Assembly (NCBI GenBank): GCA_036504035.1
Contig: DASXVV010000008.1
Coordinates: forward strand, 62,001-126,000
Direction: 5' to 3'
DNA: 64,000 nucleotides
From: Candidatus Deferrimicrobiaceae bacterium
GTDB lineage: Bacteria > Desulfobacterota > Deferrimicrobia > Deferrimicrobiales > Deferrimicrobiaceae
This document shows positions 9,805-62,838 of the stretch, one piece after another. Made by a program: the position numbers and the translations under genes. Every line of letters begins with the position of its first letter. The stretch's first letter is position 1. The notes below the pieces were generated by a model. That model saw only the letters and a list, made by a program, of their open reading frames with translations. It made no database searches and was not told the DNA's origin.

Positions 9805-10689
9805 ATGGCGAGGAAAAAGAACAAAAGCACACTTGAAGAACTTTATGAAATCGCCGCCCTGCTGCCTTGGTGGATTGATTGCGTTTTGGCTCTCATTGCA
9901 TATCTTGTCCTCCACTGGTACGCAACCGCGGCGGTATCTTCCAGCGCCGCTCCAGGGCAAGTGGGCCAATTAATGGTCACCAGTGTTTTCAAGGGTCTCG
10001 CCGCGTTCGCCCAGTACGTGGTCCCCCTGATGTTTCTGGCCGGCGCAGTCGCATCGCTCCTGGGATCCCGCAAACGTCAGGGGCTTGTCCGCGACGTTGC
10101 CAACGATCAATCCGGCAATGCGCTGCGAAATATGTCTTGGGGCGATTTCGAACTTCTCGTGGGGCAGGCGTTCCGGATGCGAGGATACGCGGTCACGGAA
10201 ACCGGTGGTGGCGGTGCGGACGGCGGCGTCGATTTGAAGCTCAGCCGGGACAACGAGGTATTCCTGGTCCAATGCAAGCAGTGGCGCGCCTACAAAGTAT
10301 CCGTCAACATCGTCCGGGAACTTTTCGGCGTGATGGCTGCTGAGGGAGCGACCGGCGGTTTCGTCGTGACCTCCGGCGTTTTCACCGCCGAGGCGCAGTC
10401 ATTTGCAAAAGGCCGGAACATCGAACTGATCGATAGCACGGCGCTCGCGAGAATGATCGACAGGGCGCGCATCGCCATGGAGATCCACAAGACAGACCAA
10501 GACAACCGGGCTTCAGGCCTCGCTGCGCAGTCAGCACAAGTTGCCAACGCCCCTGTCCTCGCTCCCATATGTCCCCGTTGCGGGGGTGCAATGGTGAAAC
10601 GGGTAGCCAGACAGGGGGCGAATGCCGGAAAGGGATTCTGGGGCTGCATCACGTATCCGAAATGCCGCGGTGTGCAGGATGCAGAGTGA
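9805..10689 (+). CDS. Membrane-anchored Mrr-type restriction endonuclease with topoisomerase zinc ribbon
   Basis: A 294-residue protein. Two hydrophobic segments (about 22-42 and 65-86) are followed by an Mrr catalytic domain (about 108-235) with the PD-(D/E)XK pattern ADGGVDLKL then VFLVQCKQW (D143, Q156-x-K158). A C-terminal C4 zinc ribbon of topoisomerase IA type follows (CPRCGG, then GFWGCITYPKC, about 262-287). Mrr enzymes usually cut modified DNA. The two membrane segments would place the nuclease at the inner membrane facing the cytoplasm. AGAGGGG precedes the ATG. It is co-directional with the M48 protease gene 17 bases upstream. Confidence 0.85.
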   Translation: MARKKNKSTLEELYEIAALLPWWIDCVLALIAYLVLHWYATAAVSSSAAPGQVGQLMVTSVFKGLAAFAQYVVPLMFLAGAVASLLGSRKRQGLVRDVANDQSGNALRNMSWGDFELLVGQAFRMRGYAVTETGGGGADGGVDLKLSRDNEVFLVQCKQWRAYKVSVNIVRELFGVMAAEGATGGFVVTSGVFTAEAQSFAKGRNIELIDSTALARMIDRARIAMEIHKTDQDNRASGLAAQSAQVANAPVLAPICPRCGGAMVKRVARQGANAGKGFWGCITYPKCRGVQDAE

Positions 10690-13800: not shown

Positions 13801-14429
13801 TTCTGACGGCCACAAAAAACGATGGTAAGGATCTTGTCGACAAGCTGGGCCAGCACTTATTCACCTACTACCTTTGGAAAGTCCACCCCCTGACGGGGGA
13901 CGAAAGCCTTCTGGCGCGTTATTACGACAAGACCAGCGATGATCGGCAACGTTGGGCGCAACTCTTCGACCATGTCGGCCGCACCCTGAGAAACAGCAGC
14001 AAAAACCTGGACAAAGAGTTGGTCGATCGCGTCATCGCCTATTTCGATTGGCGTCTTGATGGCGCTGAGCGGCTGGAACTTCAAAAATTCACCTATTGGC
14101 TGGAAGCGGAATGTCTGGATCCCGAGTGGCGTTTGCGCTCTTACTCGAAGATTCTTGATTTCGGGCGCGAAAAGAATGCGGGGCTTTCCATGGAGCTGAG
14201 AACCTTGAACAAACTGCTCCCATATTCCCCGCCTTTAGCCGTTGAATGTTTTGCGAAAATCATTGAAGCCATGGCCCGAGACACCCATATGTACGTTTCC
14301 GCTGACGAGGCCAAGTGCATTCTAAAAGCTGGCTTGAAAGCTGAAGACCCTCAGGCTCGTGAAAATGCAGAACGTGCCAGAGAAAATCTTTTGCGGTGCG
14401 GCCGCTTCAATTTTCTGGACATGGAATGA
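10857..14429 (+). CDS. Very large uncharacterised protein of a defence-type locus
   Basis: A 1190-residue protein whose family I do not recognise. It begins MAESQTDLLETGPIELTPTQ and has an N-terminal part (about 15-140) with short motifs such as KYPLGDWYLGAIYAVKN. The rest appears almost wholly alpha-helical with many aromatic and charged residues, suggesting a solenoid or scaffold. No Walker A, no nuclease signature, no signal peptide and no clear membrane segment are visible. The ATG at 10857 follows AAGGGGG; the frame is open further upstream, but that part overlaps the Mrr gene and the AraC relic. Base composition (roughly 50% G+C) is clearly below that of the core genes. The RhuM gene starts 14 bases after its stop, so the two form a unit lying between AraC repeats. 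Confidence 0.8.
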   Translation: MAESQTDLLETGPIELTPTQQQVIEILGSVKSTKYPLGDWYLGAIYAVKNTYNPDRYAQAAQSLRELLEKLPRVFGETEIQESRPGFRGMRDSLYSRLSSDKKRYDGAWKGKKIDTGLDKTIRNVDRYLELNQIPARKDQIHAVMNQLDPMYETLDQGIKSEKSERFHNLWNTFEGFAHHKIKIDDVFFGQQLSLAERLIIGLLAPITAQDQGAIQAILLKPNPDQDDFDKLFELIKRRGANYAFFFKNVDNPAWIAPLAQNGFFNLPPNVEATGDGQILAPIWWPIFYLQKVSVRSAEQVVDIILGLKPTDNPRILHEIFSIGCDLPDLGLSLRLKPLIKKFLQSPYRWGEDELIVNILQKWGGESGKPLAAAQEIVQYVIAFQPDPKEEEKRSRRKENPEARNTALEPVPRFDPWEYQQIIEKGVRPLAEREPFHVARILIAATANMIRMGTHTEDLDTSRGEDYSEIWCRRLDKLNPDYQNVKDTLVHTMAFACGQVYDKDPQSIEVLDRVLRSQRWKVFRRLRQLLYATHPNDQTFPWIRELILGHDDYSKWEHHYEFQLMVRKVSEHFGLRLLSEGERTAIFDAILSGPSKEDFREWMGERYSEEAFQQRQRHFHRMQLRPFAALLTGEYQRSFNELEGEAQAESISDDSYSPYGEMSGGVVTYRSPKSSEDLEILKDDELLAYLNEWNEGSREKDNWLVEINISALSGVFQSLFSERIAPDAARLAFWMAHRDKIARPIYVSVMVKSMQEFVKDKNVEKLDQWIEFCAWILLHPDPERVEGLPKPRDESRDHPDWGSSRRAVVDFIDACVNKDTGVPATARDGLANLLQHVCIQFDWRLDRDRPVLLNRDDQITEAINNTRSRALESLVNFGFWIRRQNSEDTVPEVTDILSKRMSKDAELPLTRPEHALLGMHFGNLCVLNRDWAIEQRKVMFPKINEPIWRDAFESYIRYNPPVKRTFEVMREDYEYALDHLNVLTATKNDGKDLVDKLGQHLFTYYLWKVHPLTGDESLLARYYDKTSDDRQRWAQLFDHVGRTLRNSSKNLDKELVDRVIAYFDWRLDGAERLELQKFTYWLEAECLDPEWRLRSYSKILDFGREKNAGLSMELRTLNKLLPYSPPLAVECFAKIIEAMARDTHMYVSADEAKCILKAGLKAEDPQARENAERARENLLRCGRFNFLDME

Positions 14430-14443
14430 GGGGTGGGAATGTC

Positions 14444-15493
14444 ATGACCGACCACGACAAAAAGCTGATTCGCAACTCCACGGCGGAGTTTCTCATCTTC
14501 ACCGGCCAGGCCGGGGAACAAAGTATCGAGGCGCGCTATGAGGCCGAAACCGTTTGGCTAACGCAGAAGCTGATGGCCGAACTGTTCGCAGTGGATGTGC
14601 GTACGGTCAGCGAGCACCTGAAAAACATCTATGAATCCGGGGAACTGACGCGGGAGGCAACTCTCCGGAAATTCCGGACAGTTCAAGCCGAAGGTGGCCG
14701 GCAGGTGGCCAGAAATGTTGAGTTCTACAACCTCGACACCATCATCTCCGTCGGTTACCGGGTCAGCTCGGTGCGTGCAACCCAGTTTCGCCAGTGGGCA
14801 ACCCAGGTGCTGCGGGAGTTCGCCATCAAGGGTTATGTGCTGGACAGGAAGCGCATGGAGAACGGCGCGTTTCTGGGCGAGGATTATTTCGAGCGGCTGC
14901 TCGAAGAGATCCGCGAGATCCGCCTCAGCGAACGGCGCTTTTACCAGAAGATCACCGACATCTACGCCACCAGCGTCGATTACAATTCCGAGGCGCCGAC
15001 CACCAAGTCCTTTTTTGCCAAGGTCCAGAACAAGCTGCACTTTGCCATTCACGGTCACACCGCTGCCGAGTTGATCCTGCGGCGGGCCGACAGCACCAAG
15101 GTCAATATGGGACTGACCACATGGGAAAAGGCCCCCGACGGCAAGATCGTGAAAACCGATGTGGCGGTGGCCAAGAACTACCTGACCAAGGAGGAACTGG
15201 GAGCCCTGGGACGCATCGTCAACGCCTATCTCGACCTGGCCGAGGAGCGCGCCCTGCGGAAGATTCCCATGACCATGGAGGACTGGGCCAAGCGGCTGGA
15301 TGCCTTCCTGGAGTTCACCGAGCGCGACATCCTGCAAAATGCCGGCAAGGTCACGGCGGAACTGGCCAAGGCCCATGCCGAGAGCGAATTCGAAAAGTAT
15401 CGCATCGTCCAGGACCGGCTGTTTGAAAGCGATTTCGACCGGATCGTGAAGCAGATCGAATCTGCCGCAGGCGACAAACCCTCCGAAGAATGA
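14444..15493 (+). CDS. RhuM family protein
   Basis: A 349-residue protein of the Virulence_RhuM family. The N-terminal part (about 25-110) is the shared DNA-binding-like region with TVWLTQKLMAELFAVDVRTV, then EHLKNIYESGEL, then YNLDTIISVGYRV and TQFRQWATQVL. The C-terminal part is the RhuM-specific region containing FYQKITDIYATSVDYN and FFAKVQNKLHFAIHGHTAAE. The biochemical function is unknown. The family was named from a Salmonella pathogenicity island and is often found next to restriction or toxin-like genes. It follows the 1190-residue protein by 14 bases. A second protein with the same N-terminal region, fused to Fic, is at 35954-36991. Confidence 0.88.
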   Translation: MTDHDKKLIRNSTAEFLIFTGQAGEQSIEARYEAETVWLTQKLMAELFAVDVRTVSEHLKNIYESGELTREATLRKFRTVQAEGGRQVARNVEFYNLDTIISVGYRVSSVRATQFRQWATQVLREFAIKGYVLDRKRMENGAFLGEDYFERLLEEIREIRLSERRFYQKITDIYATSVDYNSEAPTTKSFFAKVQNKLHFAIHGHTAAELILRRADSTKVNMGLTTWEKAPDGKIVKTDVAVAKNYLTKEELGALGRIVNAYLDLAEERALRKIPMTMEDWAKRLDAFLEFTERDILQNAGKVTAELAKAHAESEFEKYRIVQDRLFESDFDRIVKQIESAAGDKPSEE

Positions 15494-29822: not shown

Positions 29823-32687
29823 ATGATCACCGACTATCACGCCAAATATTTCGCCCACGAATTGACGCGCCGCTATGCTTCCGACAGTCCGGATAAACTT
29901 GCCGGGGCGGTTGCTGGCGCTCAGGTGGATCTGAACCCGCATCAGGTCGATGCGGCCTTGTTTGCTTTTCGGTCCCCGTTTTCCAAGGGGGCGATTCTGG
30001 CGGACGAAGTCGGTCTCGGGAAAACGATCGAAGCCGGTCTCGTGATCTCTCAGAAATGGGCCGAGCGCGCCCGTCGCATCCTCGTCATTACTCCGTCCAA
30101 TTTGCGCAAGCAGTGGCACCAGGAACTGTCCGAAAAATTCTTTCTCCCTTGCCGGATTCTGGAGAGTCGCTCGTATAACGAAACCGTTAAGCGGGGAGGC
30201 GTTCCTCCGTTCGCTGCAACGGATTCGATCCTGATCTGCTCCTACCAGTTTGCCCGCAACAAGGCCGCTGACGTACAGGCCACGCCGTGGGATCTCGCCG
30301 TCATCGACGAAGCTCATCGTCTTCGCAATGTCTACAAGCCCTCCAACATCATCGCGAACACGTTGAAGCAGGCGCTTGCGTCCAGGCACAAGCTGCTGTT
30401 GACCGCCACACCCCTTCAGAATTCGTTGCTTGAGTTGTACGGCCTTGTCGGTTTCATCGACGAACACACCTTCGGCGACCTGAAAAGTTTCCGTGAGCAA
30501 TTTTCGAATCCGAATCAGGAGCACGTTTTCCAGTCTTTGCGGAACCGGCTGAAACCGGTTTGCCACCGCACGCTTCGTAGGCAAGTCAGCCAATACGTTC
30601 CGTACACCGAGCGGCGGCCGATTCTGCAGGAATTCACGCCAGAAGAGAGCGAAGATCACCTGTATGAACTCGTCTCGGAATATCTTCGCCGTCCGAGTCT
30701 TCAGGCGTTGCCGGCCGGTCAGCGCACGCTCATCACGCTGGTTCTTCGCAAGCTGCTCGCGTCGTCGACGTTTGCCATCGGAGGTGCGCTGGAGTCGATG
30801 TCTCGGCGATTGAAAACCCGGCTTAAAAAACAGACCCAGGCGGATACCCTCGAACAGGATCTGGATCAGGATTACGAGGCTCTCGACGAGACGGCCGAGG
30901 AATGGTCCGAGGAAGAGGTCGCCCCCCCGTTGTCGGTGGCTGATCGACTCGCGCTCGAACAGGAGATTGCCGATCTTGATTCCATTGCGCAGCTGGCTGT
31001 CTCCATCGAACAGAACGCCAAGGGGAGGGCGCTCCTGACCGCTTTGGAGGTCGCATTTCGGAAAGCCGTCGATCTTGGCGCCGCGAAGAAGGCCATCATT
31101 TTTACCGAATCCCGGCGGACGCAGGATTATCTGTTGCGCGTGTTGGCCGACAGTCCGTTTCGGGACGGCATCGTGCTTTTCAACGGATCGAACACCGACG
31201 ACCGTTCCAAGGCGATCTATTCGGCATGGCTTGCGCGCCATACGGGAACAGACCGCGTCACCGGCTCGAAAACTGCCGACATGCGCTCTGCGCTCGTGGA
31301 CTATTTTCGCGAGGAAGGTCACATCATGATTGCGACCGAGGCCGGCGCAGAAGGGATCAACCTTCAGTTCTGTTCGCTGGTGGTGAATTACGACCTTCCC
31401 TGGAATCCGCAGCGGATCGAGCAGCGAATCGGTCGATGTCACCGATACGGTCAGAAGCACGATGTCGTCGTCGTGAATTTCCTCAACCGGAAAAACGAAG
31501 CCGACCGTCGCGTTTACCAATTGCTTTCGGAAAAGTTCCGCCTGTTCGAAGGGGTGTTCGGGGCCAGCGATGAAGTGCTCGGCGCCATCGAATCCGGTGT
31601 GGATTTCGAAAAACGGATCGCATCCATCTATCAATGTTGCCGGCGAACCGAGGAAATCAAAACAGCCTTCGACCAGCTTCAACTTGAACTGAGTTTCGAA
31701 ATCAGCCAGGCCATGGCGAACACCCGCCAGACCCTTCTCGAAAATTTCGACGACGAGGTTAGAGAGAAGCTGAAGATTCGCGACGAAGCCTCGAAGGCGT
31801 TCCTCAACCGATTCGAGCGATTGCTGATGCGCCTGACGCGCCACGAACTGGGTGGGCACGCCAAATTTCCAGACGACTCTTCTTTCCGTCTCGATTCCTC
31901 CCCGTTTTCCCACGCTGACGGCGCCATCCCTCTTGGGCTTTACGAGTTGCCCCGCCGTACGGGTGAAGCGCACCTGTATCGACTAAATCACCCACTGGCG
32001 GAAGCGATTCTCGCTCAAGCGAAGCGGCGCGATTTGCCGGCAGCCGAAATCCTTTTCAGTTATGGGGACCATGAAGGCAAGATTTCGATCCTGGAGCCGC
32101 TTATCGGTCAGTCCGGTTGGCTCACTCTTTCCCTGTTCACCGTCGAATCGCTCGACCAGGCGGAAGATCACCTGATCTTTTCGGCGATCACCGATGATGG
32201 AGAGGTCCTGGATGGGGACACCGCCCAAAAGGTGTTCTCGTTGCCGGGTGTCGTAGAGGGTAATGTAGCCCTGACCGGACCAATCGCCGCACGCTTGGAT
32301 GGGTTCGAGAAGAAGCGTCAATCCGAAATCCGCTTGGACGTATCGGACCGGAACGCCCGGTTCTTTGAAGTCGAGGCCGACAAGTTGGATGGTTGGGCGG
32401 ATGACCTGAAACTCGGCCTCGAACGCGAGATCAAGGAGATCGACCGCCAGATCAAGGAAGTCCGCCGCACAGCCACCGCGGCGCAGACTCTTGAGGAAAA
32501 GCTGATAATCCAGAAGCAGGTTAAGGCGCTTGAATCCCAGCGCAACCAGAAGCGACGGACCCTCTTCGACGCTCAGGATGAAGTCGACCGGAAACGAGAC
32601 GAACTGATCGCGGAGATCGAGGGGAAGATGCAGCAACGGATGGGGATGACCCAATTGTTTTTAATCCGGTGGCGGTTAGAAGTGTGA
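29823..32687 (+). CDS. SNF2/RapA-like DEAD-box helicase of a restriction operon
   Basis: A 954-residue helicase. Walker A is ILADEVGLGKTIEAGLVISQ (about 60-75), the DEAH box is VIDEAHRLRN (about 161), LLTATPLQNS is motif III, and motif VI is RIEQRIGRCHRYGQKHDV (about 525-540). The region between the two helicase lobes holds an acidic insert (about 335-375), and the C-terminus is a long coiled coil (about 850-945). It belongs to the SWI2/SNF2 branch seen with bacterial methyltransferases. It leads an operon with a Mod methyltransferase, RhuM-Fic and Res, interrupted by kwaAB. It would move on double-stranded DNA to help restriction; this is inferred from context. Confidence 0.88.
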   Translation: MITDYHAKYFAHELTRRYASDSPDKLAGAVAGAQVDLNPHQVDAALFAFRSPFSKGAILADEVGLGKTIEAGLVISQKWAERARRILVITPSNLRKQWHQELSEKFFLPCRILESRSYNETVKRGGVPPFAATDSILICSYQFARNKAADVQATPWDLAVIDEAHRLRNVYKPSNIIANTLKQALASRHKLLLTATPLQNSLLELYGLVGFIDEHTFGDLKSFREQFSNPNQEHVFQSLRNRLKPVCHRTLRRQVSQYVPYTERRPILQEFTPEESEDHLYELVSEYLRRPSLQALPAGQRTLITLVLRKLLASSTFAIGGALESMSRRLKTRLKKQTQADTLEQDLDQDYEALDETAEEWSEEEVAPPLSVADRLALEQEIADLDSIAQLAVSIEQNAKGRALLTALEVAFRKAVDLGAAKKAIIFTESRRTQDYLLRVLADSPFRDGIVLFNGSNTDDRSKAIYSAWLARHTGTDRVTGSKTADMRSALVDYFREEGHIMIATEAGAEGINLQFCSLVVNYDLPWNPQRIEQRIGRCHRYGQKHDVVVVNFLNRKNEADRRVYQLLSEKFRLFEGVFGASDEVLGAIESGVDFEKRIASIYQCCRRTEEIKTAFDQLQLELSFEISQAMANTRQTLLENFDDEVREKLKIRDEASKAFLNRFERLLMRLTRHELGGHAKFPDDSSFRLDSSPFSHADGAIPLGLYELPRRTGEAHLYRLNHPLAEAILAQAKRRDLPAAEILFSYGDHEGKISILEPLIGQSGWLTLSLFTVESLDQAEDHLIFSAITDDGEVLDGDTAQKVFSLPGVVEGNVALTGPIAARLDGFEKKRQSEIRLDVSDRNARFFEVEADKLDGWADDLKLGLEREIKEIDRQIKEVRRTATAAQTLEEKLIIQKQVKALESQRNQKRRTLFDAQDEVDRKRDELIAEIEGKMQQRMGMTQLFLIRWRLEV

Positions 32688-32802: not shown

Positions 32803-33366
32803 ATGAAACTTCGCTTTTTTGCCTCAGTTTTTATGTTCATAAGTTCCTATTTTCCCTTGGCTCTTATATTTATCATAAAGGATATTGATGAAAAAACATT
32901 TCTTCCTAAACACATTATTACGGCGGCAGTAATCGCCGTAACTGTTATAATTGCATGCTGCACTACTATGCTCGCCGCACAAAAAATTGAAAATGGTATT
33001 CCTGTAAATATATTAAAGGCATCTAACAAGTCTGGTGATATGTTTACGTATACGATTCCATACATGATATCTTTCTATAATTTTAACTTGGGTGATTGGA
33101 AGACCTTGTTGAGTATGGGTGTCTTTATGCTTTTGATGTTTTCCTTGTCTTATAGGACCCAAAATATTTTTGTGAATCCGGTCCTTGCCCTTGCAGGGTA
33201 TGGGCTATACGATTGTCAACTAAAGTTTGGCGAGCGTGAGATGCAGGGAATGCTCATTTCTAAAGAAGAGTTTCATGTCGGCGATACGTGTGTTGTCGAA
33301 CAACTTTCAAGATTCTTATATTTTGTTGCCAGCATTCAGGTGAAGGAGAAACGAGATGGTAACTAA
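32803..33366 (+). CDS. kwaA: Kiwa antiphage system membrane protein KwaA
   Basis: A 187-residue protein with about four hydrophobic segments (near 6-27, 36-57, 100-117 and 123-137). A KwaA-like C-terminal part follows (NPVLALAGYGLYDCQLKF, then MLISKEEFHVGD). The base composition is strikingly A+T-rich (about one third G+C by eye) against its surroundings. It overlaps kwaB by 11 bases. Kiwa is a known two-gene defence system in which membrane KwaA senses phage attack and KwaB binds DNA to block replication and late transcription. The family call rests mainly on the KwaB partner and on topology. Confidence 0.82.
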   Translation: MKLRFFASVFMFISSYFPLALIFIIKDIDEKTFLPKHIITAAVIAVTVIIACCTTMLAAQKIENGIPVNILKASNKSGDMFTYTIPYMISFYNFNLGDWKTLLSMGVFMLLMFSLSYRTQNIFVNPVLALAGYGLYDCQLKFGEREMQGMLISKEEFHVGDTCVVEQLSRFLYFVASIQVKEKRDGN

Positions 33367-34294
33367 ACTTGGGAAAAAAATGACGTATTTACGCCAAGTC
33401 GATTATAAGCATTGGATCACGACCCTTTGGCTGGTTAAAAGGACACTGGATCTAAATAAAATAGCCCATTACACAGTTTTACGTGTAGATCTTGATACTA
33501 AACTTAAGAATAAGTTGAAAAGGGCAGTTGTGGACCGAATTAATGGTGCCGACTATAAACTTGAAGCATACGATTTCCTGACAGCAGACCTTGATGATGG
33601 GCTTCTGACGATTGATTCATCTGAAACTGATTTCGTCCGAGTTCAAAATGAGATAGACAAAGGATTTGGAAACAAGAAAGTAGATAACTATGACGAGCTG
33701 TTGGATTCATGGGCATATGTTATAGATATTCGGCATGATGCTAATGTTATATATGGCGTTAGAAAAATAAATAAATTTACAAAAGCTGCAAAAATGAAAG
33801 CCGTTTCATTTCTGATTTTCAGAGATAAAGTCCTATCCGATCTTGATGACGAAAAAGTTTTCGTGTTGGATACGCATATAGATTTTTTCGTATTCGAAGG
33901 GACAACGTTTATATCAAATAAGAAAGAGTTCGAAAGTGCCATGAATTTCCGTCAAGGCATGGAGGATAACAGGGACACAATTATGACGGAATTTGTTGGA
34001 TTGAAGATATTTAATGACGTGGAGCCAATTCGAAAAATAGTTGGATCGAATTTGAATTTCTTGAGAAAAATATCTGCTATCCAGAAAAGTGGCTACTATA
34101 AAGACAAGTCATACTTCAATAACCTGATTAGGTTGAATAAAGAGGAAAAGTGGGGGCTGACGATAAAGGATGGTGTGATCGTGGTAAATGAAGATAACGT
34201 CGAATTAATTTTGACCTTGTTGAATAATAATCGACTTAAGTCTCCAATTAACCAAGAGGTATTCGACGCCTCCGTTAAGAAAAAAGTCGGTTGA
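33356..34294 (+). CDS. kwaB: Kiwa antiphage system DUF4868 protein KwaB
   Basis: A 312-residue protein matching DUF4868: YDFLTADLDDGLLTIDSSET, DELLDSWAYVIDIRHDANVI, ALDT-type strand VFVLDTHIDFFVFEGTTFIS and NKKEFESAMNFRQGMED. It starts with GAAGGAGAA upstream and overlaps kwaA. It shares the low G+C content of kwaA and differs sharply from both flanking restriction genes, so the pair was acquired as a block. KwaB is the DNA-binding effector of Kiwa. Confidence 0.88.
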   Translation: MVTKLGKKMTYLRQVDYKHWITTLWLVKRTLDLNKIAHYTVLRVDLDTKLKNKLKRAVVDRINGADYKLEAYDFLTADLDDGLLTIDSSETDFVRVQNEIDKGFGNKKVDNYDELLDSWAYVIDIRHDANVIYGVRKINKFTKAAKMKAVSFLIFRDKVLSDLDDEKVFVLDTHIDFFVFEGTTFISNKKEFESAMNFRQGMEDNRDTIMTEFVGLKIFNDVEPIRKIVGSNLNFLRKISAIQKSGYYKDKSYFNNLIRLNKEEKWGLTIKDGVIVVNEDNVELILTLLNNNRLKSPINQEVFDASVKKKVG

Positions 34295-34307: not shown

Positions 34308-35957
34308 ATGATCAAAAAGAAACTCGAACTGACCTGGATCGGGAAGGAGAATCGTCCGCGGCTCGAGCCGCGGATTCTTCTTGAGGATCCAGCGAATTCG
34401 CACCATGCGGCGCACCGGGTGACCGGGGGTGACCTCTTCGACAACCGGCTCATCTTCGGCGACAACCTGCTGGCGCTTAAGGCGCTGGAGCAAGAGTTCG
34501 CGGGGAAGGTGAAGTGCGTCTTCATCGACCCACCGTACAACACCGGCAGCGCGTTTACTCACTACGACGATGGGTTAGAGCACTCCCTTTGGCTGTCGTT
34601 GATGCGGGACCGGCTCGAACTCATCCGAACTTTGCTGTCGGATGACGGTTCGCTTTGGATCACGATTGACGACAACGAGGCGCACTACCTCAAGGTGGTG
34701 TGTGATGAAGTGTTCGGCCGAGTAAATTACAAGACAACCGTGACATGGCAACGGAAATACAGCGTGAGCAATAACTTTCAAGGCATTGCAACTATTTGCG
34801 ATTTTGTTTTAGTCTATTCAAAGAGCGAAAAATTTATGAACAACTTACTTCCAAGAACGGAAGAATCCGCAGCCAGATATTCAAACCCTGATAACGACCC
34901 GAGGGGACCATGGAAAGCAGTAGATTATTTGAATCAAGCCACGCCAGATAAACGGCCAAATCTTTGTTATGACATCATTAATCCAAATACAGGTAACATA
35001 GTTAAGAACGCTAAGAAAGCATGGAAGTACGACCCACAGACCCATAGTCAGCATGTAGAGGAAAAACGGATTTGGTGGGGGCGAGATGGACGCAATTCCG
35101 CGCCTGCCGTGAAGCTCTTTCTTTCTGAGGTTCGGGATGGAATGACGCCGCACAACTGGTGGCCTCATGATGATGTTGGGCATACTGATGAAGCCAAAAA
35201 AGAAATGATCAGCCTATTCGGTGCTCGTGATGTATTCGACACTCCCAAACCTGAACGTCTGATTAAACGCGTTTTAGAGATCGCCACCAACCCAGGCGAC
35301 CTCGTCCTCGACTCCTTCGCCGGTTCCGGCACGACAGGCGCCGTGGCGCACAAGATGGGGCGGCGCTGGATCATGATCGAATTGGGCGAGCATTGTCACA
35401 CGCACATCATCCCGCGGATGCAGAAGGTGATCGACGGCGAGGATCCCGGCGGGATCACAAAGGCGGTCGACTGGAAGGGGGGCGGCGGGTTCCGCTACTA
35501 CCGGCTCGCGCCGTCGCTGCTCGAAAAGGACAAGTGGGGGAACTGGGTCATCAGCAGCGAGTACAACGCCAACATGCTCGCCGAGGCGTTGTGCAAGCTC
35601 GAAGGGTTCACCTATGCGCCGAGCGAGGCGATCTACTGGCAGCACGGCCGATCCACCGAGCGCGACTTCATCTACGTGACCACGCAGAACCTGAGCGCCG
35701 ACCAGCTTCAGCAGCTTTCCGACGAAGTGGGGGGCGACCGGTCGCTGCTCGTCCTCTGCACCGCCTTCCGGGGGAACCCCGACCGCTACCCGAACCTCAC
35801 GGTAAAGAAGATCCCGCACCAGGTGCTCTCCCGCTGCGAATGGGGCCACGACGACTACAGCCTGAAAGTGGAGAACCTGCCGCAGGCGCCGCCGAAACCG
35901 GGCCAGCAGACGCTCGATTTCGGGGAAGGGAAACCGGAACGGGAGGATGAACCTTGA
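34308..35957 (+). CDS. Type III-like site-specific DNA methyltransferase (Mod)
   Basis: A 549-residue beta-class adenine-type methyltransferase. Catalytic motif IV is CVFIDPPYNTGSAFTHYDDG (DPPY at about 74-77). A target-recognition region spans about 140-320, and the AdoMet motif I is DLVLDSFAGSGTTGAVAHKM (about 333-352). It would methylate the sites that the Res subunit restricts. The central part, about 34725-35270, is much richer in A+T than both ends, pointing to replacement of the target-recognition domain. There is no strong ribosome site before the ATG, possibly because kwaAB was inserted just upstream. Confidence 0.9.
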   Translation: MIKKKLELTWIGKENRPRLEPRILLEDPANSHHAAHRVTGGDLFDNRLIFGDNLLALKALEQEFAGKVKCVFIDPPYNTGSAFTHYDDGLEHSLWLSLMRDRLELIRTLLSDDGSLWITIDDNEAHYLKVVCDEVFGRVNYKTTVTWQRKYSVSNNFQGIATICDFVLVYSKSEKFMNNLLPRTEESAARYSNPDNDPRGPWKAVDYLNQATPDKRPNLCYDIINPNTGNIVKNAKKAWKYDPQTHSQHVEEKRIWWGRDGRNSAPAVKLFLSEVRDGMTPHNWWPHDDVGHTDEAKKEMISLFGARDVFDTPKPERLIKRVLEIATNPGDLVLDSFAGSGTTGAVAHKMGRRWIMIELGEHCHTHIIPRMQKVIDGEDPGGITKAVDWKGGGGFRYYRLAPSLLEKDKWGNWVISSEYNANMLAEALCKLEGFTYAPSEAIYWQHGRSTERDFIYVTTQNLSADQLQQLSDEVGGDRSLLVLCTAFRGNPDRYPNLTVKKIPHQVLSRCEWGHDDYSLKVENLPQAPPKPGQQTLDFGEGKPEREDEP

Positions 35958-58956: not shown

Positions 58957-59096
58957 CCTTGTCGCGAAGTGGTGCGCCTTACCGGCCGAAGAAGGGCACT
59001 ACTGGGAGGTGATAGTTGCTCTATAGCATGCGGTTCTGGGTCAGCGGGAATAAATAAGCGGAAATCTTAACCGCATATTTATCCCTATCGGGCTGC

Positions 59097-60512
59097 CTAT
59101 GCGTCTTCCTCATTCGCTTCAAGACTTTTTTCCGCCTTCCTGTTTTCCTCTCGCATTATTTTGTTCGCTTTCTCAGACAAGGAGGAAGCCAACTTTGCAA
59201 GGCCTGGTATCCTTGATAGTTTTTCGACCGAATTTGTTAGTTTAATGCTTTTATCCAAAGCATCCATAATAGGATGGTCAGCTTTATTGTAATCTGATAT
59301 CAACTTGCCAGGATTTTCTGAGCTAACTTCCAATATTGCATATAGCAATTTCTCCCTCAGATCAATGGTCCCTGAACCATCCGGCAGCCCTTCAATTTGA
59401 GTAGATAGTCCCTCGTATGTTTTACTTATTGCCTCTTTATGTGAATACTCTTCAGCCAAGCGTTTGGATAGATTTATCCTTCTATTTGATGAATAGGCTA
59501 TCCATGTAACCGGTATATATAACGGAACAATTGCCAGTACTAATCGAGGAAGTCGCAATATCACTTCTGCCAATGGCACTTCCTGTAACAGCGATACTAT
59601 ACTCACAGTAACTGGAATTAATGAGACAACACTCATACCTAGAATTGCCCACCTAAATACAATTTCATGCTTTGCCCCTTCCCTCACTTCCTGTTCTTTT
59701 TTATCAGAATATGCATGGCTCAATCCGGCGGTTAATGCCTTTGGGAGCAACGCTTCTATTTTACCCCTAACCAATTCAAATTCGTTGACGAATTTGTTAA
59801 GCAAAACTTGTACATCATCTGATTTGGTTTTTTCGAAATTTGACATTCTCAAAGACAGTTCTTCTAGCGCTGAAGAGGTAATGGTTATATGCGATGAAAA
59901 TCCTGCTTTTAATTTTTTATATGTATCATCCAGTTCATCTTTAAGACCAGCGATATGTTTCGATTCCTTCGTTTTGTCGTCAGTCTCATCGTAGCCAAAT
60001 ATTTTATAGTAGACTTCATCGATTTCCCCATCTGCTGCCTCTACATTCTTATGCAATGACTCTATGTTGCTCGAAAGGGCCTTCGCCTTTTCGCATTGGG
60101 CATCAAACTCTTTCAATTTTGCCAGAACATTGGCATTGTCAGAATATACTCCCTGAATCTCCTCGAAATAATCCAACGCACTGTCGTGCCACAATTTTAA
60201 TTTTTCGACAGTCTGCGAAACTTCCTCAATCGACGCGGTCGCATTAGTGGCATCTGAAACCACCTTATCCTGTAGCTCTTTGATATTGGCCGCGGCAGCA
60301 ACAGATTCGTCGAATATTGTATTTATCTCATCTTGTTTGCCTGAAACATCTGACAAACTAGACGAAAGGCTATTCAATATATTCTTTGCGGCATCCACAG
60401 ATTTTTTCAGTTCAGACTCTAGCTCTGGGGTTTTTTGTTTTAACTCTAATTCCAGCGATTCTATTCTCCCCCATAATTTAAGCCTTTCTTCATCCAAGAA
60501 ATTATTGTCCAC
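59097..60512 (-). CDS. A+T-rich coiled-coil membrane protein of unknown function
   Basis: A 471-residue protein I do not recognise. Residues about 5-265 are mostly heptad-like coiled coil (RIESLELELKQKTPELESEL, then ELQDKVVSDATNATASIEEV). Two membrane helices follow (about 287-309 and 322-342: RWAILGMSVVSLIPVTVSIV, VLAIVPLYIPVTWIAYS). The cytoplasmic-looking tail has LAEEYSHKEAISKTYEGLST. Its G+C content is far below that of the core genes. The GTG at 60512 follows GGGAGG; a longer start is possible. It is the cargo gene of the decayed element next to tRNA-Arg, and a defence or membrane-sensor role is possible but unproven. Confidence 0.75.
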   Translation of the reverse strand: MDNNFLDEERLKLWGRIESLELELKQKTPELESELKKSVDAAKNILNSLSSSLSDVSGKQDEINTIFDESVAAAANIKELQDKVVSDATNATASIEEVSQTVEKLKLWHDSALDYFEEIQGVYSDNANVLAKLKEFDAQCEKAKALSSNIESLHKNVEAADGEIDEVYYKIFGYDETDDKTKESKHIAGLKDELDDTYKKLKAGFSSHITITSSALEELSLRMSNFEKTKSDDVQVLLNKFVNEFELVRGKIEALLPKALTAGLSHAYSDKKEQEVREGAKHEIVFRWAILGMSVVSLIPVTVSIVSLLQEVPLAEVILRLPRLVLAIVPLYIPVTWIAYSSNRRINLSKRLAEEYSHKEAISKTYEGLSTQIEGLPDGSGTIDLREKLLYAILEVSSENPGKLISDYNKADHPIMDALDKSIKLTNSVEKLSRIPGLAKLASSLSEKANKIMREENRKAEKSLEANEEDA

Positions 60513-60553
60513 ATATCCTCCCAATACATAATTAAATATTAGAACTGTAACCG

Positions 60554-60571
60554 TTGTGTCCTACGACACAA
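60554..60571. repeat. Perfect 7-bp inverted repeat upstream of the Rep genes
   Basis: TTGTGTCCTACGACACAA forms a hairpin with a 4-base loop in the 245-bp space between the divergent coiled-coil and regulator genes. It is a candidate regulator site or origin element. Confidence 0.4.
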
Positions 60572-60585
60572 ATTGGCTGATAGAA

Positions 60586-60610
60586 CCCCCCGTTTCGGTA
60601 ACACGGGGGG
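60586..60610. repeat. G+C-rich hairpin in the element control region
   Basis: CCCCCCGT and ACGGGGGG pair across a 9-base loop, 15 bases after the previous repeat. It may be a single-strand origin structure of the Rep element or a minus-strand attenuator. Confidence 0.4.
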
Positions 60611-60722
60611 CGCAAACTGCAAACCCCATCTCGAAACCTTGCTCACCCCCAACGGCATACTCCATATGCAGAATCATGTCAAAAAAATAATTGACTGCGA
60701 AATAAGTCCGTGAGAGTCTAGT

Positions 60723-60740
60723 GAATGTTGTAAGACATTC
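60723..60740. promoter_or_regulatory. Operator-like inverted repeat before the small regulator gene
   Basis: GAATGT and ACATTC with a 6-base spacer lie 17 bases upstream of the ATG at 60758. TTGACT at 60691 could be a -35 element. The repeat would suit autoregulation by the small DNA-binding-like protein. Confidence 0.45.
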
Positions 60741-60757
60741 ATGCGAAAGGTAACCGA

Positions 60758-61084
60758 ATGGACCCCAAAGACCTCAGCAAACTGTGGAGTGCCCCAGACA
60801 ATTCCAGATTAACCCCGAAACAAATTTCCATCCGGTTGCCTCTCCACGTCGCGGCCAAGATCAACGCTATCAGCGAAATGTTTCCCACAAAAACGAAGAC
60901 ACAAATCATCGGGGACCTGTTGGCCTCGGCGCTAGCTCAATTCGCTCAAGGGCTTTCACGTGAACCGTATCCGTATGAGGAGGAGAAAGACCCTGAATTC
61001 GAGCCATGCGGGCCGCACGCAAGGTACGAAAGTTTAGTGGCGAGTCATCTCGCGGAACTTGAGCAGGAAAAGGAAGGCGACTGA
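60758..61084 (+). CDS. Small putative DNA-binding protein of the Rep element
   Basis: A 108-residue protein. The central part LTPKQISIRLPLHVAAKINA then ISEMFPTKTKTQIIGDLLAS reads like a ribbon-helix-helix or CopG-type DNA-binding unit, followed by an acidic tail. The gene lies directly before the Rep gene, whose start is 10 bases after its stop, so it may control replication or excision of the element. The family assignment is by pattern only. Confidence 0.65.
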   Translation: MDPKDLSKLWSAPDNSRLTPKQISIRLPLHVAAKINAISEMFPTKTKTQIIGDLLASALAQFAQGLSREPYPYEEEKDPEFEPCGPHARYESLVASHLAELEQEKEGD

Positions 61085-61094
61085 GGACCAGGCG

Positions 61095-61889
61095 GTGACG
61101 TTACCCAATTCCAAAGGTCTGCTGCTCCACGGCATCGATACGCTTCAATGCGCGTACTACCTGAGTTCATTGGGTCGGTCGTGCGGGATCGACTTCACGG
61201 AGTTGCGGACGCTTCGGGAAACTCTACGCAACCGAAAATCCAAAGACCCCGAAATGATCACCCTCGGGGATACGCCATTTCTTCTCGCTTCGCATGGGAC
61301 AAGTTCAGGGTATCCCTTTCTTCTCACCAATGAAGATTTCAAGATCGAGTGCGGGGAATTCAATTCGCCTTCGTTCTTTGTGACGTTCAAGAGTCAGGCG
61401 CTCTGGAAGGAAACGGCATACGCGCTTCATGGCAAGTTCCTCGCTTGGGCGGCCAACCTGGGCTTCAAAGCGATTCGTCCGGAAACTCTTTCCCGCGTGG
61501 ATTACTGCTTCGACTATCACCTTCCTGAAATCGACTTCAATGAGGACTCGTTCGTCAGTCGGTCAACCAAAGACAGCCAGCATCGGGAAAACGGCAAGGT
61601 GCAAACCTTCACGCTCGGGCGCGGCGATATCGTGCTGCGCATTTACGACAAGGTCGCCGAGATAGCCGAGCAAAGCGACAAGGTCTGGTTCTTCGAACTG
61701 TGGAAGCAGGACCAGGACGTCTGGCGCATCGAGTGGCAAGTGCGCAAACCAATCTTGAAGCAATTCGGTATCGCGGCCTTTGATTCCCTGCGGCAAAGTC
61801 ACGGCGATCTTCTCCGGTATCTTGCCGAGGAGCACACAACGCTTCGGAGTCGGACTGAGAAGGGCACTACGTCGCGGTCGAATACATAG
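61095..61889 (+). pseudogene. Rolling-circle-type replication initiator, C-terminally truncated
   Basis: The 264-residue frame begins with a GTG that has GAGGA upstream. It shows the replication initiation factor pattern: LLLHGIDTLQCAYYLSSLG, ETLSRVDYCFDYHLPEIDF, FTLGRGDIVLRIYDKVAEIA and WRIEWQVRKPILKQFGIAAF. Related Rep proteins nick origins of plasmids or small integrative elements. After LLRYLAEEHTTLR the sequence changes abruptly to SRTEKGTTSRSNT, where the reading frame runs into a serine recombinase gene in another frame. The normal C-terminal end is therefore lost by a deletion. It may be partly active or dead. Confidence 0.75.
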
Positions 61890-62762
61890 AACCGGGGGCG
61901 TCGGCCACGGACGACCGGCGTCCTGTCTTTCAACAGATGATCTCGGAGGCAACTCTTTCGCCTTCGCCATTCGATGCCATCGTGGTTCATTCCCTCTCGC
62001 GTTTTTTCCGTGATTCATTCGAGTTCATGTTTTACGAGCGCAGGCTTCGCAAGAGCGGGGTCAAGGTCATCTCCATCACGCAGCAGACGAGCGATGATCC
62101 CGCCGGCGAGATGGCCCGAAAGATGTTCTCGATGTTCGATGAGTACCAGAGCAAGGAAAACGGAAAGCATACGCTTCGCGGGATGCAGGAAAACGCGCGG
62201 CAGGGATACTTCAACGGATCACAAAGTCGACGAAGCGGTACTCGCCACCCTTAAACAACGGGTTTTAACAGACGTCCGCGTGACACAGATGCTGCGCGAG
62301 TTGAAAGGGCGTCGATCCGCCACCGACGCAACCAAACAGGCGTACTTGAAACAATTAGGCGTGGAGTTGGAAAAGGTGCGGCAGGGCACGGATCGGCTTC
62401 ATGAAGCCGTTGCATCGGGCTTCCTGCCGATGGATTCCTCGCTCACAGAGAAGGCGCACAAACTCTCGACGCGGCGTCAGGAGATTCTGACCGAGATGGC
62501 CGGGATCAGGCGGGAAGCGGAGATGCCGAACGAGATGCTTTCTCCGAAGAACATCCATGCGTTTACCGAGGCGATGCGGAAACGGCTGAGCGATCCGGAA
62601 TGCCAGTTCGGCAAGGATTATCTGCGATTGTTGGTGAAGGAAATCCGGATTACAGGGAAGGAAGTCCGGATGCGCGGCAGTTATGCGGGGATCGCACACG
62701 CCATCGTGAAGAAAGAACTGGGCACGGCCTCGCAAGAGGGAGTGCCCAGTTTCATACCAGGA
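61862..62762 (+). pseudogene. Serine site-specific recombinase with large internal deletion
   Basis: From 61862 one frame reads GHYVAVEYIEPGASATDDRR and VHSLSRFFRDSFEFMFYERR, then VISITQQTSDDPAGEMARKM to GMQENARQGYFNGSQ, the N-terminal resolvase domain without its first 25 or so residues and catalytic Ser. Near 62221 the frame shifts into the C-terminal coiled coil (VDEAVLATLKQRVLTDVRVT, YLRLLVKEIRITGKEVRMRG). The middle recombinase and zinc-ribbon parts are missing. The C-terminal reading then passes into the tRNA-Arg, giving the well-known spurious RDSNPQPSDPKSD peptide. It was the integrase of the element but is now dead. Confidence 0.85.
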
Positions 62763-62838
62763 TGGTGCGCCCTGAGGGATTCGAACCCCCAACCCTCAGA
62801 TCCGAAGTCTGATGCTCTATCCGTTGAGCCAAGGGCGC
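62763..62838 (-). tRNA. tRNA-Arg (anticodon UCG)
   Basis: A 76-base gene on the minus strand with encoded CCA. The acceptor pairs GCGCCCT with AGGGCGC, the anticodon arm is TCAGA-CTTCGGA-TCTGA with anticodon TCG, and the T-arm contains GGTTCGAATCC. The G at the 5' end is at 62838. It is the likely attachment site of the element to its left, because the recombinase relic ends against its 3' end. Confidence 0.96.

Follow-up and report, generated by a model that had tools for sequence, protein, structure and literature searches.

Single-gene membrane proteins of prophages or islands that act against rivals are a kind already known. PrrC-type guard effectors sit inside Type I restriction-modification (RM) operons. 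In P2-like phages, the gpA-Q interval harbours old and tin and is a hotspot in which validated defence genes are located (PMC9122126), and four of the systems of a second study lie in this interval (PMC9519451). The P2 hotspot also holds partition and toxin genes, so not all of its occupants are defensive, and of eight additional systems cloned, three were protective (PMC9122126). SNIPE is a membrane-anchored defence protein encoded by one gene and equipped with a variable adapter region; its variable N-terminal regions mostly direct it to the membrane, and it encounters DNA during injection (PMC13190303).

The gene described here lies in the window, i.e., the whole 64-kb stretch of DNA that was analyzed. 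It was tentatively read, with somewhat less than even confidence, as a single-gene inner-membrane protein of anti-phage defence (inter-element competition), in which a coiled coil may serve as sensor and a membrane module as effector of abortive infection. The gene, its carriers and its positions were observed directly, and its anatomy partly by prediction.

Cargo gene and host element

The cargo gene, encoding a 471-aa coiled-coil protein with two transmembrane (TM) helices, is located at 59097..60512 on the minus strand. The longest mechanical ORF, 59097-60524(-), has 475 aa from a TTG codon. The minus strand at the gene start reads TATTGGGAGGATATGTGGAC, where the Shine-Dalgarno sequence GGGAGGA stands immediately 5' of the GTG at 60512, and close relatives start at about the same position. 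For these two reasons GTG 60512 was preferred over TTG 60524. The gene is real and intact, and the extent given in the first-pass annotation stands.

The GC content of the gene is 39.8%, and its GC3 (0.379) ranks lowest among the 43 non-overlapping ORFs of at least 150 aa in the window; for comparison, the GC3 of the next-door fadE is 0.902 and that of the truncated replication gene (Rep) is 0.682. Therefore, the A+T-rich gene looks foreign to the chromosome and also to the remaining part of its own element. The same annotation had called it A+T-rich cargo and the only intact large gene of a decayed element. The composition, the Rep-recombinase element around it and the mobile carriers of its relatives agree with this description, and so does the decay of the other genes, i.e., a Rep of 276 aa against a 395-aa ORF in the IMG/VR contig L194, and a recombinase without its N-terminus and middle.

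We call the host element a small decayed Rep and serine-recombinase element beside tRNA-Arg. Its order is a possible TGGTGCGCC repeat, the cargo gene (-) as sole intact sizeable gene, an intergenic region, a 108-aa ORF, the truncated Rep-like ORF, the recombinase remnant, and tRNA-Arg. The intergenic region of 245 bp, between the cargo gene and the divergent ORF, has two palindromes and a G+C-rich hairpin. The 18-bp palindrome TTGTGTCCTACGACACAA (60554..60571), upstream of the cargo start, is a possible operator, and the second palindrome, TGAATGTTGTAAGACATTCA, is at 60722-60741. The hairpin CCCCCCG...CGGGGGG (60586..60610), read by eye, may be a replication-origin hairpin. The 108-aa ORF (60758..61084, plus strand) matched no family in the libraries searched; from reading its sequence, we take it to be ribbon-helix-helix-like.

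The truncated replication-initiation-like ORF (61059..61889, plus strand) and the serine recombinase remnant (61871..62669, plus strand, two frames) follow. In the remnant, Pfam Resolvase matches positions 34-143 from 61871, i.e., the domain begins only at profile position 34, and the phrog_95 match is split over two frames (stretches 156-242 and 379-561), with 62669 as the end of the second stretch. Relatives of the window Rep were found in IMG/VR contigs L194 and L196, with 58% and 42% identity over 253 aa. In both contigs the Rep relative lies immediately 5' of a serine recombinase. The recombinase of L194 is intact, and its best segment shares 75% identity with the window remnant. Because of this order, the pair is considered a native arrangement that decayed in the window. 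A small element family related to the window element is represented by L194/L198 and L196, in which a Rep-like ORF precedes that of a serine recombinase.

An assignment of the window element to filamentous phages was rejected because its Rep matches no phage record and adjoins a serine recombinase in the two IMG/VR contigs. The Rep showed a weak match to a small Mesotoga plasmid (E 2e-3), and two further Rep scans found no other element.

The right end of the element is tRNA-Arg (tcg) at 62763..62838 on the minus strand. The 9-mer TGGTGCGCC at 58970..58978 is a copy of the tRNA-Arg 3' end (other copy, 62763-62771) and a possible left attachment repeat. Three copies occur on the plus strand of the window, two of them at the element ends; therefore, the attachment-site reading is suggestive only. 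A 20-nt near-repeat (17/20) is present at 58983-59002 and 61851-61870, and its right copy ends exactly at the start of the recombinase remnant. It was set aside as attachment site since the left flank does not hold the missing recombinase start; TGGTGCGCC, located at the tRNA end, is preferred as the candidate. In the sister species G002, fadE is kept and then followed by different sequence on its contig, with no empty site readable. A second serine recombinase, a 513-aa open frame, was observed about 80 kb further along the same contig (G000:C8:206812-207243). In blastn, it and the window remnant shared nothing more than short words attributable to chance.

No recognized defence gene was found within the next few kb of the cargo gene. 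From reading ORFs by their motifs, we assume that a defence island occupies 8.3-36 kb of the window, presumably with a Mrr-like nuclease (9805-10689), a RhuM-like protein (14396-15493), a SNF2-type helicase (29823-32687) and a type III-like DNA methylase (34308-35957). Between the last two, two A+T-rich ORFs at 32803-34294, a membrane-like protein and an unknown one, follow the cargo gene as the ORFs with the next-lowest GC3 (0.39 and 0.388).

Protein anatomy and conservation

The AlphaFold2 model of the window protein was built on 72 aligned sequences (mean pLDDT 80.0, pTM 0.38). Helices were predicted at residues 3-125, 129-160, 190-309 and 314-374, and a short strand pair at 174-187. The C-domain modelled alone had a mean pLDDT of 80.7.

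The variable N-terminal helical region, residues 3-160 (60033..60506, minus strand, as for all parts below), comprises the first two helices and is the proposed sensor. Its coiled coil is predicted from the helices and from weak matches to coiled-coil models. A short strand hairpin with its flanks (residues 161-200, 59913..60032; strands 174-177 and 184-187) is a conserved part inside the coil. By hydropathy, TM helix 1 was assigned to residues 290-308 (59589..59645) and TM helix 2 to residues 315-333 (59514..59570), followed by the invariant W337, and the two hydrophobic stretches fall within predicted helices 190-309 and 314-374. Next comes a juxtamembrane cytoplasmic helix of residues 341-374 (59391..59492) with the motif KRLxEEYxHKExxSKTxEGLSxQI, which is the most conserved part; K350, L352, E354, E355, Y356, K359, T365 and G368 are invariant in 72 rows. 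The cytoplasmic tail, residues 380-420 (59253..59375), has the motif SENPGKLISDYN, and its N400 and P401 are invariant in the same rows.

Mean pairwise identity was 21% for residues 8-160, 40% for the strand hairpin (161-200), 41% for the TM pair, 76% for residues 341-374 and 60% for residues 380-420, and these figures apply to the closer 72-row set only. This set consists of the window protein and 71 of 95 full-length loci rows, with the IMG/VR rows except L011, one other-genome row of the phylum, the near-duplicate L110, and L078 excluded. By a simple hydropathy cut, two hydrophobic stretches were found in the window protein and in 84/108 family rows (those of at least 380 aa; 103 distinct sequences), one stretch in 19/108 and three in 5/108. 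The long N-terminal coiled coil, the two membrane helices and the conserved-looking tail that the first reading of the sequence had proposed were all recovered, the coiled coil as a prediction.

Lysine and arginine residues averaged 4.9 before TM helix 1, 0.7 in the loop and 5.1 after TM helix 2 in the 72-row set. By the positive-inside rule, these basic flanks would place the coil and the tail in the cytoplasm, i.e., a predicted N-in/C-in topology with a very short outer loop between the two membrane helices.

Fold searches of the model gave nothing at E≤0.001. The best VIA fold rows had Z 10.0 (rmsd 4.1, 152 aligned) and Z 9.9 (rmsd 4.1, 159 aligned); a Z of about 10 lies in the range flagged as a possible common helical arrangement, and therefore no membrane-killing fold is shown. 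The alpha-pore-forming toxin chains SmhB and AhlB, among the top VIA rows, were discounted because BAR-domain and other helical proteins ranked equally high. In the PDB, searches by sequence and by fold gave helical proteins of a generic kind.

Family membership and distribution

The window protein matched PHROG 34659 (E 9e-6) over residues 148-415 of the 475-aa ORF. Of seven aligned members (alignment A1), all matched phrog_34659 (best E 6e-87) and three matched phrog_30912; both PHROGs are annotated as function unknown. Pfam, NCBIfam and PADLOC 2.0.0 gave no family for the window protein, with weak, mostly coiled-coil matches only. In PADLOC 2.0.0 its best E was 0.01 (coiled-coil part only), and the best of the seven members was 3.5e-4 (LmuB, one member). 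The matches to ZorA, JetC and LmuB were dismissed as coiled-coil noise. The P2-type members are distant from the window protein, as shown by its 18% identity with the Klebsiella member in alignment A1, a tblastn E of 8e-4 to the same member and the phrog_34659 E of 9e-6.

In tblastn at E≤0.01, the window protein hit 35/72,556 plasmid records and 1/50,697 phage records. As a single query against genome contigs it found no homologue, but the three-row alignment A2 did find relatives, so absence would be the wrong conclusion from the single-query search. With A2, 89 loci were found in one-per-species genomes, and the best 80 of the 89 were kept. Exactly one match per genome was present in 40/40 genomes checked from these 80 loci. 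In the phylum of the window, the PHROG profile matched 2/395 genomes, which may be an undercount as this profile is weak for the window subfamily, and 0/14 control genomes. Among 59 near relatives, own genome included, the protein was found in the own genome only. Near-identical copies of the Klebsiella member occur in 12/5,426 E. coli genomes, four of the 12 being records of strain HS.

This sporadic distribution bears on the view that the gene encodes an ordinary cell-envelope or housekeeping protein mobilized by chance. Two-TM coiled-coil proteins are common in the cell envelope. However, the protein is present in one of 59 near relatives, few genomes of its phylum (within the possible undercount), no control genome and a small part of E. 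coli, and no recurrent cell-envelope neighbour or core envelope operon was seen around the relatives. This view was already disfavoured, and we consider it extremely unlikely.

A quick tree of 72 rows placed 69 rows under nine phylum labels, taken from record titles. The labels changed 14 times, against a minimum of 8 and a shuffled mean of 32.5; therefore, transfer between phyla is not rampant. The host labels are clustered yet mixed, which is no proof of transfer. The Leptospira and Campylobacter plasmids add two phyla. The window row was placed among Bacteroidota rows (support 86, not starred), and the loci of these rows, L037 and L051, have a GC of 32-34%, in keeping with an A+T-rich donor for the window gene.

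As far as searched, the family is undescribed in the open-access literature. No paper on it was found there, although prior testing may be listed in supplementary tables (e.g., Table S5B of PMC9122126, DefensePredictor). The accessions WP_001583354, WP_020752723, PHROG 34659 and PHROG 30912 led to no papers in the same literature. In the DefensePredictor paper (PMC13092281), TM and CC appear in a figure key and are not linkable to this family.

Carriers and gene neighbourhood

In P2-like loci with the portal gene Q, the family gene adjoins Q in 11/11. The gpA gene is on the other, upstream side in ten of them; in the eleventh, L014, the contig begins within the gene. Between the family gene and Q there are 33-50 bp in 10 loci, whereas the gap in L189 is about 25 bp. 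L007, L014 and L015 are nearly the same in this region, so fewer than 11 of the loci are independent. The count excludes the IMG/VR loci L032 and L033 (weak gpA-like match, 29%; no Q in the stretch) and L190 (gpA, no Q), which is from the same genome as L014. The same gpA-gene-Q order is annotated in E. coli HS, where the member is ECHS_RS04510. The location of the P2 tin/old hotspot is thus occupied by relatives, not by the window copy.

Other carriers are the filamentous-phage-like contig L011/L115, a Zot-bearing region of a Vibrio plasmid, Providencia phage PSTCR8lys, a Tn7-like transposon on E. coli and Acinetobacter plasmids (a fragment in Acinetobacter), and plasmids of Vibrio, Leptospira and Campylobacter. 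The filamentous-phage label of L011 comes from a minor-coat-like ORF (four phage records of 6.7-7.7 kb, best E 8e-16) and from Zot-like and coat-like ORFs read by eye. These contexts cover some of the IMG/VR relatives, with L012, L018, L019 and L021 among those left out. On two Acinetobacter plasmids (L010:5932-6291 and L140:6844-7446), the family gene is a fragment near insertion-sequence genes, adjoining genes annotated adeR and adeS.

Temperate phages, filamentous-phage-like contigs and conjugative plasmids would all gain from excluding rivals. The main rival reading is therefore superinfection or entry exclusion, in which phage or plasmid DNA would be blocked at the inner membrane without killing, the coil touching an entry protein, e.g., tape-measure protein, in a SNIPE-like action on entering DNA. 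The variable cytoplasmic coil with a membrane anchor recalls SNIPE, and the same build recalls P22 SieA (PMC13190303; PMC10883804). However, the most conserved part of the protein is the membrane-proximal helix and tail, not a variable contact surface, the window protein has no nuclease domain, and carriage by a Tn7-like transposon and proximity to Type I RM genes are less expected under exclusion. Entry exclusion appears rather unlikely, and an abortive membrane effector is the reading preferred here.

The carriage by very different plasmids and phages could also reflect element maintenance or host fitness, i.e., membrane anchoring of the element, stress response or lysogenic conversion, and the P2 hotspot includes non-defence functions (PMC9122126). 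This non-defence role is judged quite unlikely, as no recurring coupling to rep, par or tra genes appeared and the gene is also chromosomal under many phylum labels, one per genome in all 40 genomes checked.

The nearest-neighbour ORFs of the chromosomal relatives (140 ORFs, 79/80 chromosomal loci) matched 280 PADLOC models at E≤1e-10, against 8 models for 130 control ORFs, which came from 39 stretches of the same contigs located 54 kb or more from the gene; these are counts of models, not proteins, and PADLOC models are redundant. The neighbour set was 140 of 142 eligible ORFs, with two L110 ORFs dropped and ORFs shorter than 120 aa or longer than 1,100 aa left out. The control set was a random subset, 130 of 148 ORFs, from 39 of 40 control stretches, one per chosen locus. 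The best 25 of the 280 models were mostly Type I and II methyltransferases, and they also included mad2, NERD-UvrD and GajB. Among the best 25 of 146 Pfam families in the 140 neighbours were NERD (4), Eco57I methylase (4), N6_Mtase (3) and GmrSD (2), and also plain enzymes, e.g., ribonucleotide reductase (2). Many neighbours were ordinary chromosomal genes that differ between loci.

Type I RM genes, with HsdM and HsdS assigned to their clusters by reading, were found within 1.6 kb in 6/80 loci (L065, L078, L081, L096, L100 and L110). Three of the six form one near-identical group, and most of the 80 loci have no such neighbour. In L100, L110 and L078, a 150-aa ORF with a hydrophobic start is placed 23 bp after the family gene and is followed by a HsdS-like gene; different small membrane-like ORFs adjoin the family gene in some other loci.

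Neighbour clusters of at least four loci had a fixed place only in shared phage backbones, the shared Tn7-like transposon and the one Type I RM group, in a partner scan that covers ORFs of at least 60 aa and that very divergent partners would escape. No nucleotidyltransferase or other sensor-gene cluster was noticed when the clusters of at least four loci from 113 loci were read by eye.

The same scan bears on a toxin-antitoxin pair with the membrane protein as toxin. Membrane effectors often need restraint, and in the window a divergent small DNA-binding-like ORF lies upstream of the gene. However, no partner cluster of fixed place was found across unrelated loci, and no adjacent antitoxin gene was seen among the neighbour clusters of at least four loci (ORFs of at least 60 aa). 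A toxin-antitoxin pair is thus very unlikely.

The first-pass annotation had described a single gene, with no described defence protein recognized in it, and had proposed a survey of homologues and their neighbourhoods for other mobile elements. As far as tested, the single-gene character held, and the library searches left the protein outside the described defence families. The antiphage activity that the annotation thought plausible is kept here as a putative one. The survey returned phage, RM, transposon, plasmid or variable chromosomal neighbours. Core cell-envelope operons, which the annotation had named as a possible main home of the homologues, were looked for and not seen.

Proposed function

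A single gene with a variable coil, a fixed membrane module, mobile carriers and a position at an exclusion locus favours a defence or exclusion protein, and the family probably has such a function. Given defence, membrane perturbation is the slightly favoured mode, because the invariant part is the membrane-proximal cytoplasmic helix and tail, and also because the proximity to Type I RM genes recalls the PrrC guard effectors.

In the proposed mechanism, the variable coiled coil would detect either a product of infection or the condition of a defence system encoded nearby. Sensing would rearrange a homo-oligomer, the membrane module would then perturb the inner membrane, and the infected cell would be stopped, i.e., abortive infection. 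We infer these steps, from sensing and oligomer change to membrane effect and anti-phage outcome, from the layout of the protein and the positions of its gene.

At the level of the family, the chance is nearly balanced that this is a widespread one-gene anti-phage family with a fast-changing cytoplasmic coiled-coil sensor and a near-invariant two-helix membrane effector, carried in at least nine phyla by filamentous phages, P2-like prophages, plasmids, Tn7-like transposons and restriction islands. If defensive, an unnamed family that ranges from Bacteroidota to Gammaproteobacteria would be added to the known bacterial immune systems, and its division into a variable sensor and a constant membrane effector could be tested. 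The natural P2-prophage copy in E. coli HS makes this a quick question for laboratory E. coli.

Comparison with known systems

SLATT/DUF4231 effectors of CBASS-like systems have the same shape, i.e., a two-TM hairpin and then a cytoplasmic helix. SLATT-named viral-library entries made up 6/50 listed rows for the full model and 3/50 for the domain, all weak and none at E≤0.001. Pfam SLATT/DUF4231 was absent from the eight families matched by the window protein at E≤1, and the C-domain matched 0 families; for the other 71 rows, the best 25 of 61 Pfam families were considered. Alignment by hhalign with one DUF4231 protein gave no match, and searches with DUF4231 and SLATT_1 found one protein each above the cut-off in 247 genomes, at the same place. 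SLATT membership, suggested by the shape and the weak viral-library rows, is therefore unsupported by the sequence tests.

With the PrrC-type guards, the family shares a place near Type I RM genes in the six loci mentioned above. However, the window protein has no nuclease or ATPase domain, and most of the 80 loci have no RM neighbour. The window subfamily differs from PHROG 34659 and PHROG 30912 in its large distance to their phage seeds, and its 80 closest kept loci are all on bacterial genome contigs.

The occupants of the P2 tin/old site share the gpA-Q interval of P2-like phages with relatives in the family, whereas the window copy is outside a P2-like phage; Old and Tin were set against the family via family libraries only. 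SNIPE is like the window protein in the role proposed for the latter, a membrane-anchored defence protein of one gene with a variable region (PMC13190303). The two differ in their domains, since SNIPE consists of DUF4041 and a GIY-YIG nuclease and the window protein has neither DUF4041 nor a nuclease domain. They also differ in TM layout, with two helices in the C-terminal half of the window protein and one helix near the N-terminus of SNIPE.
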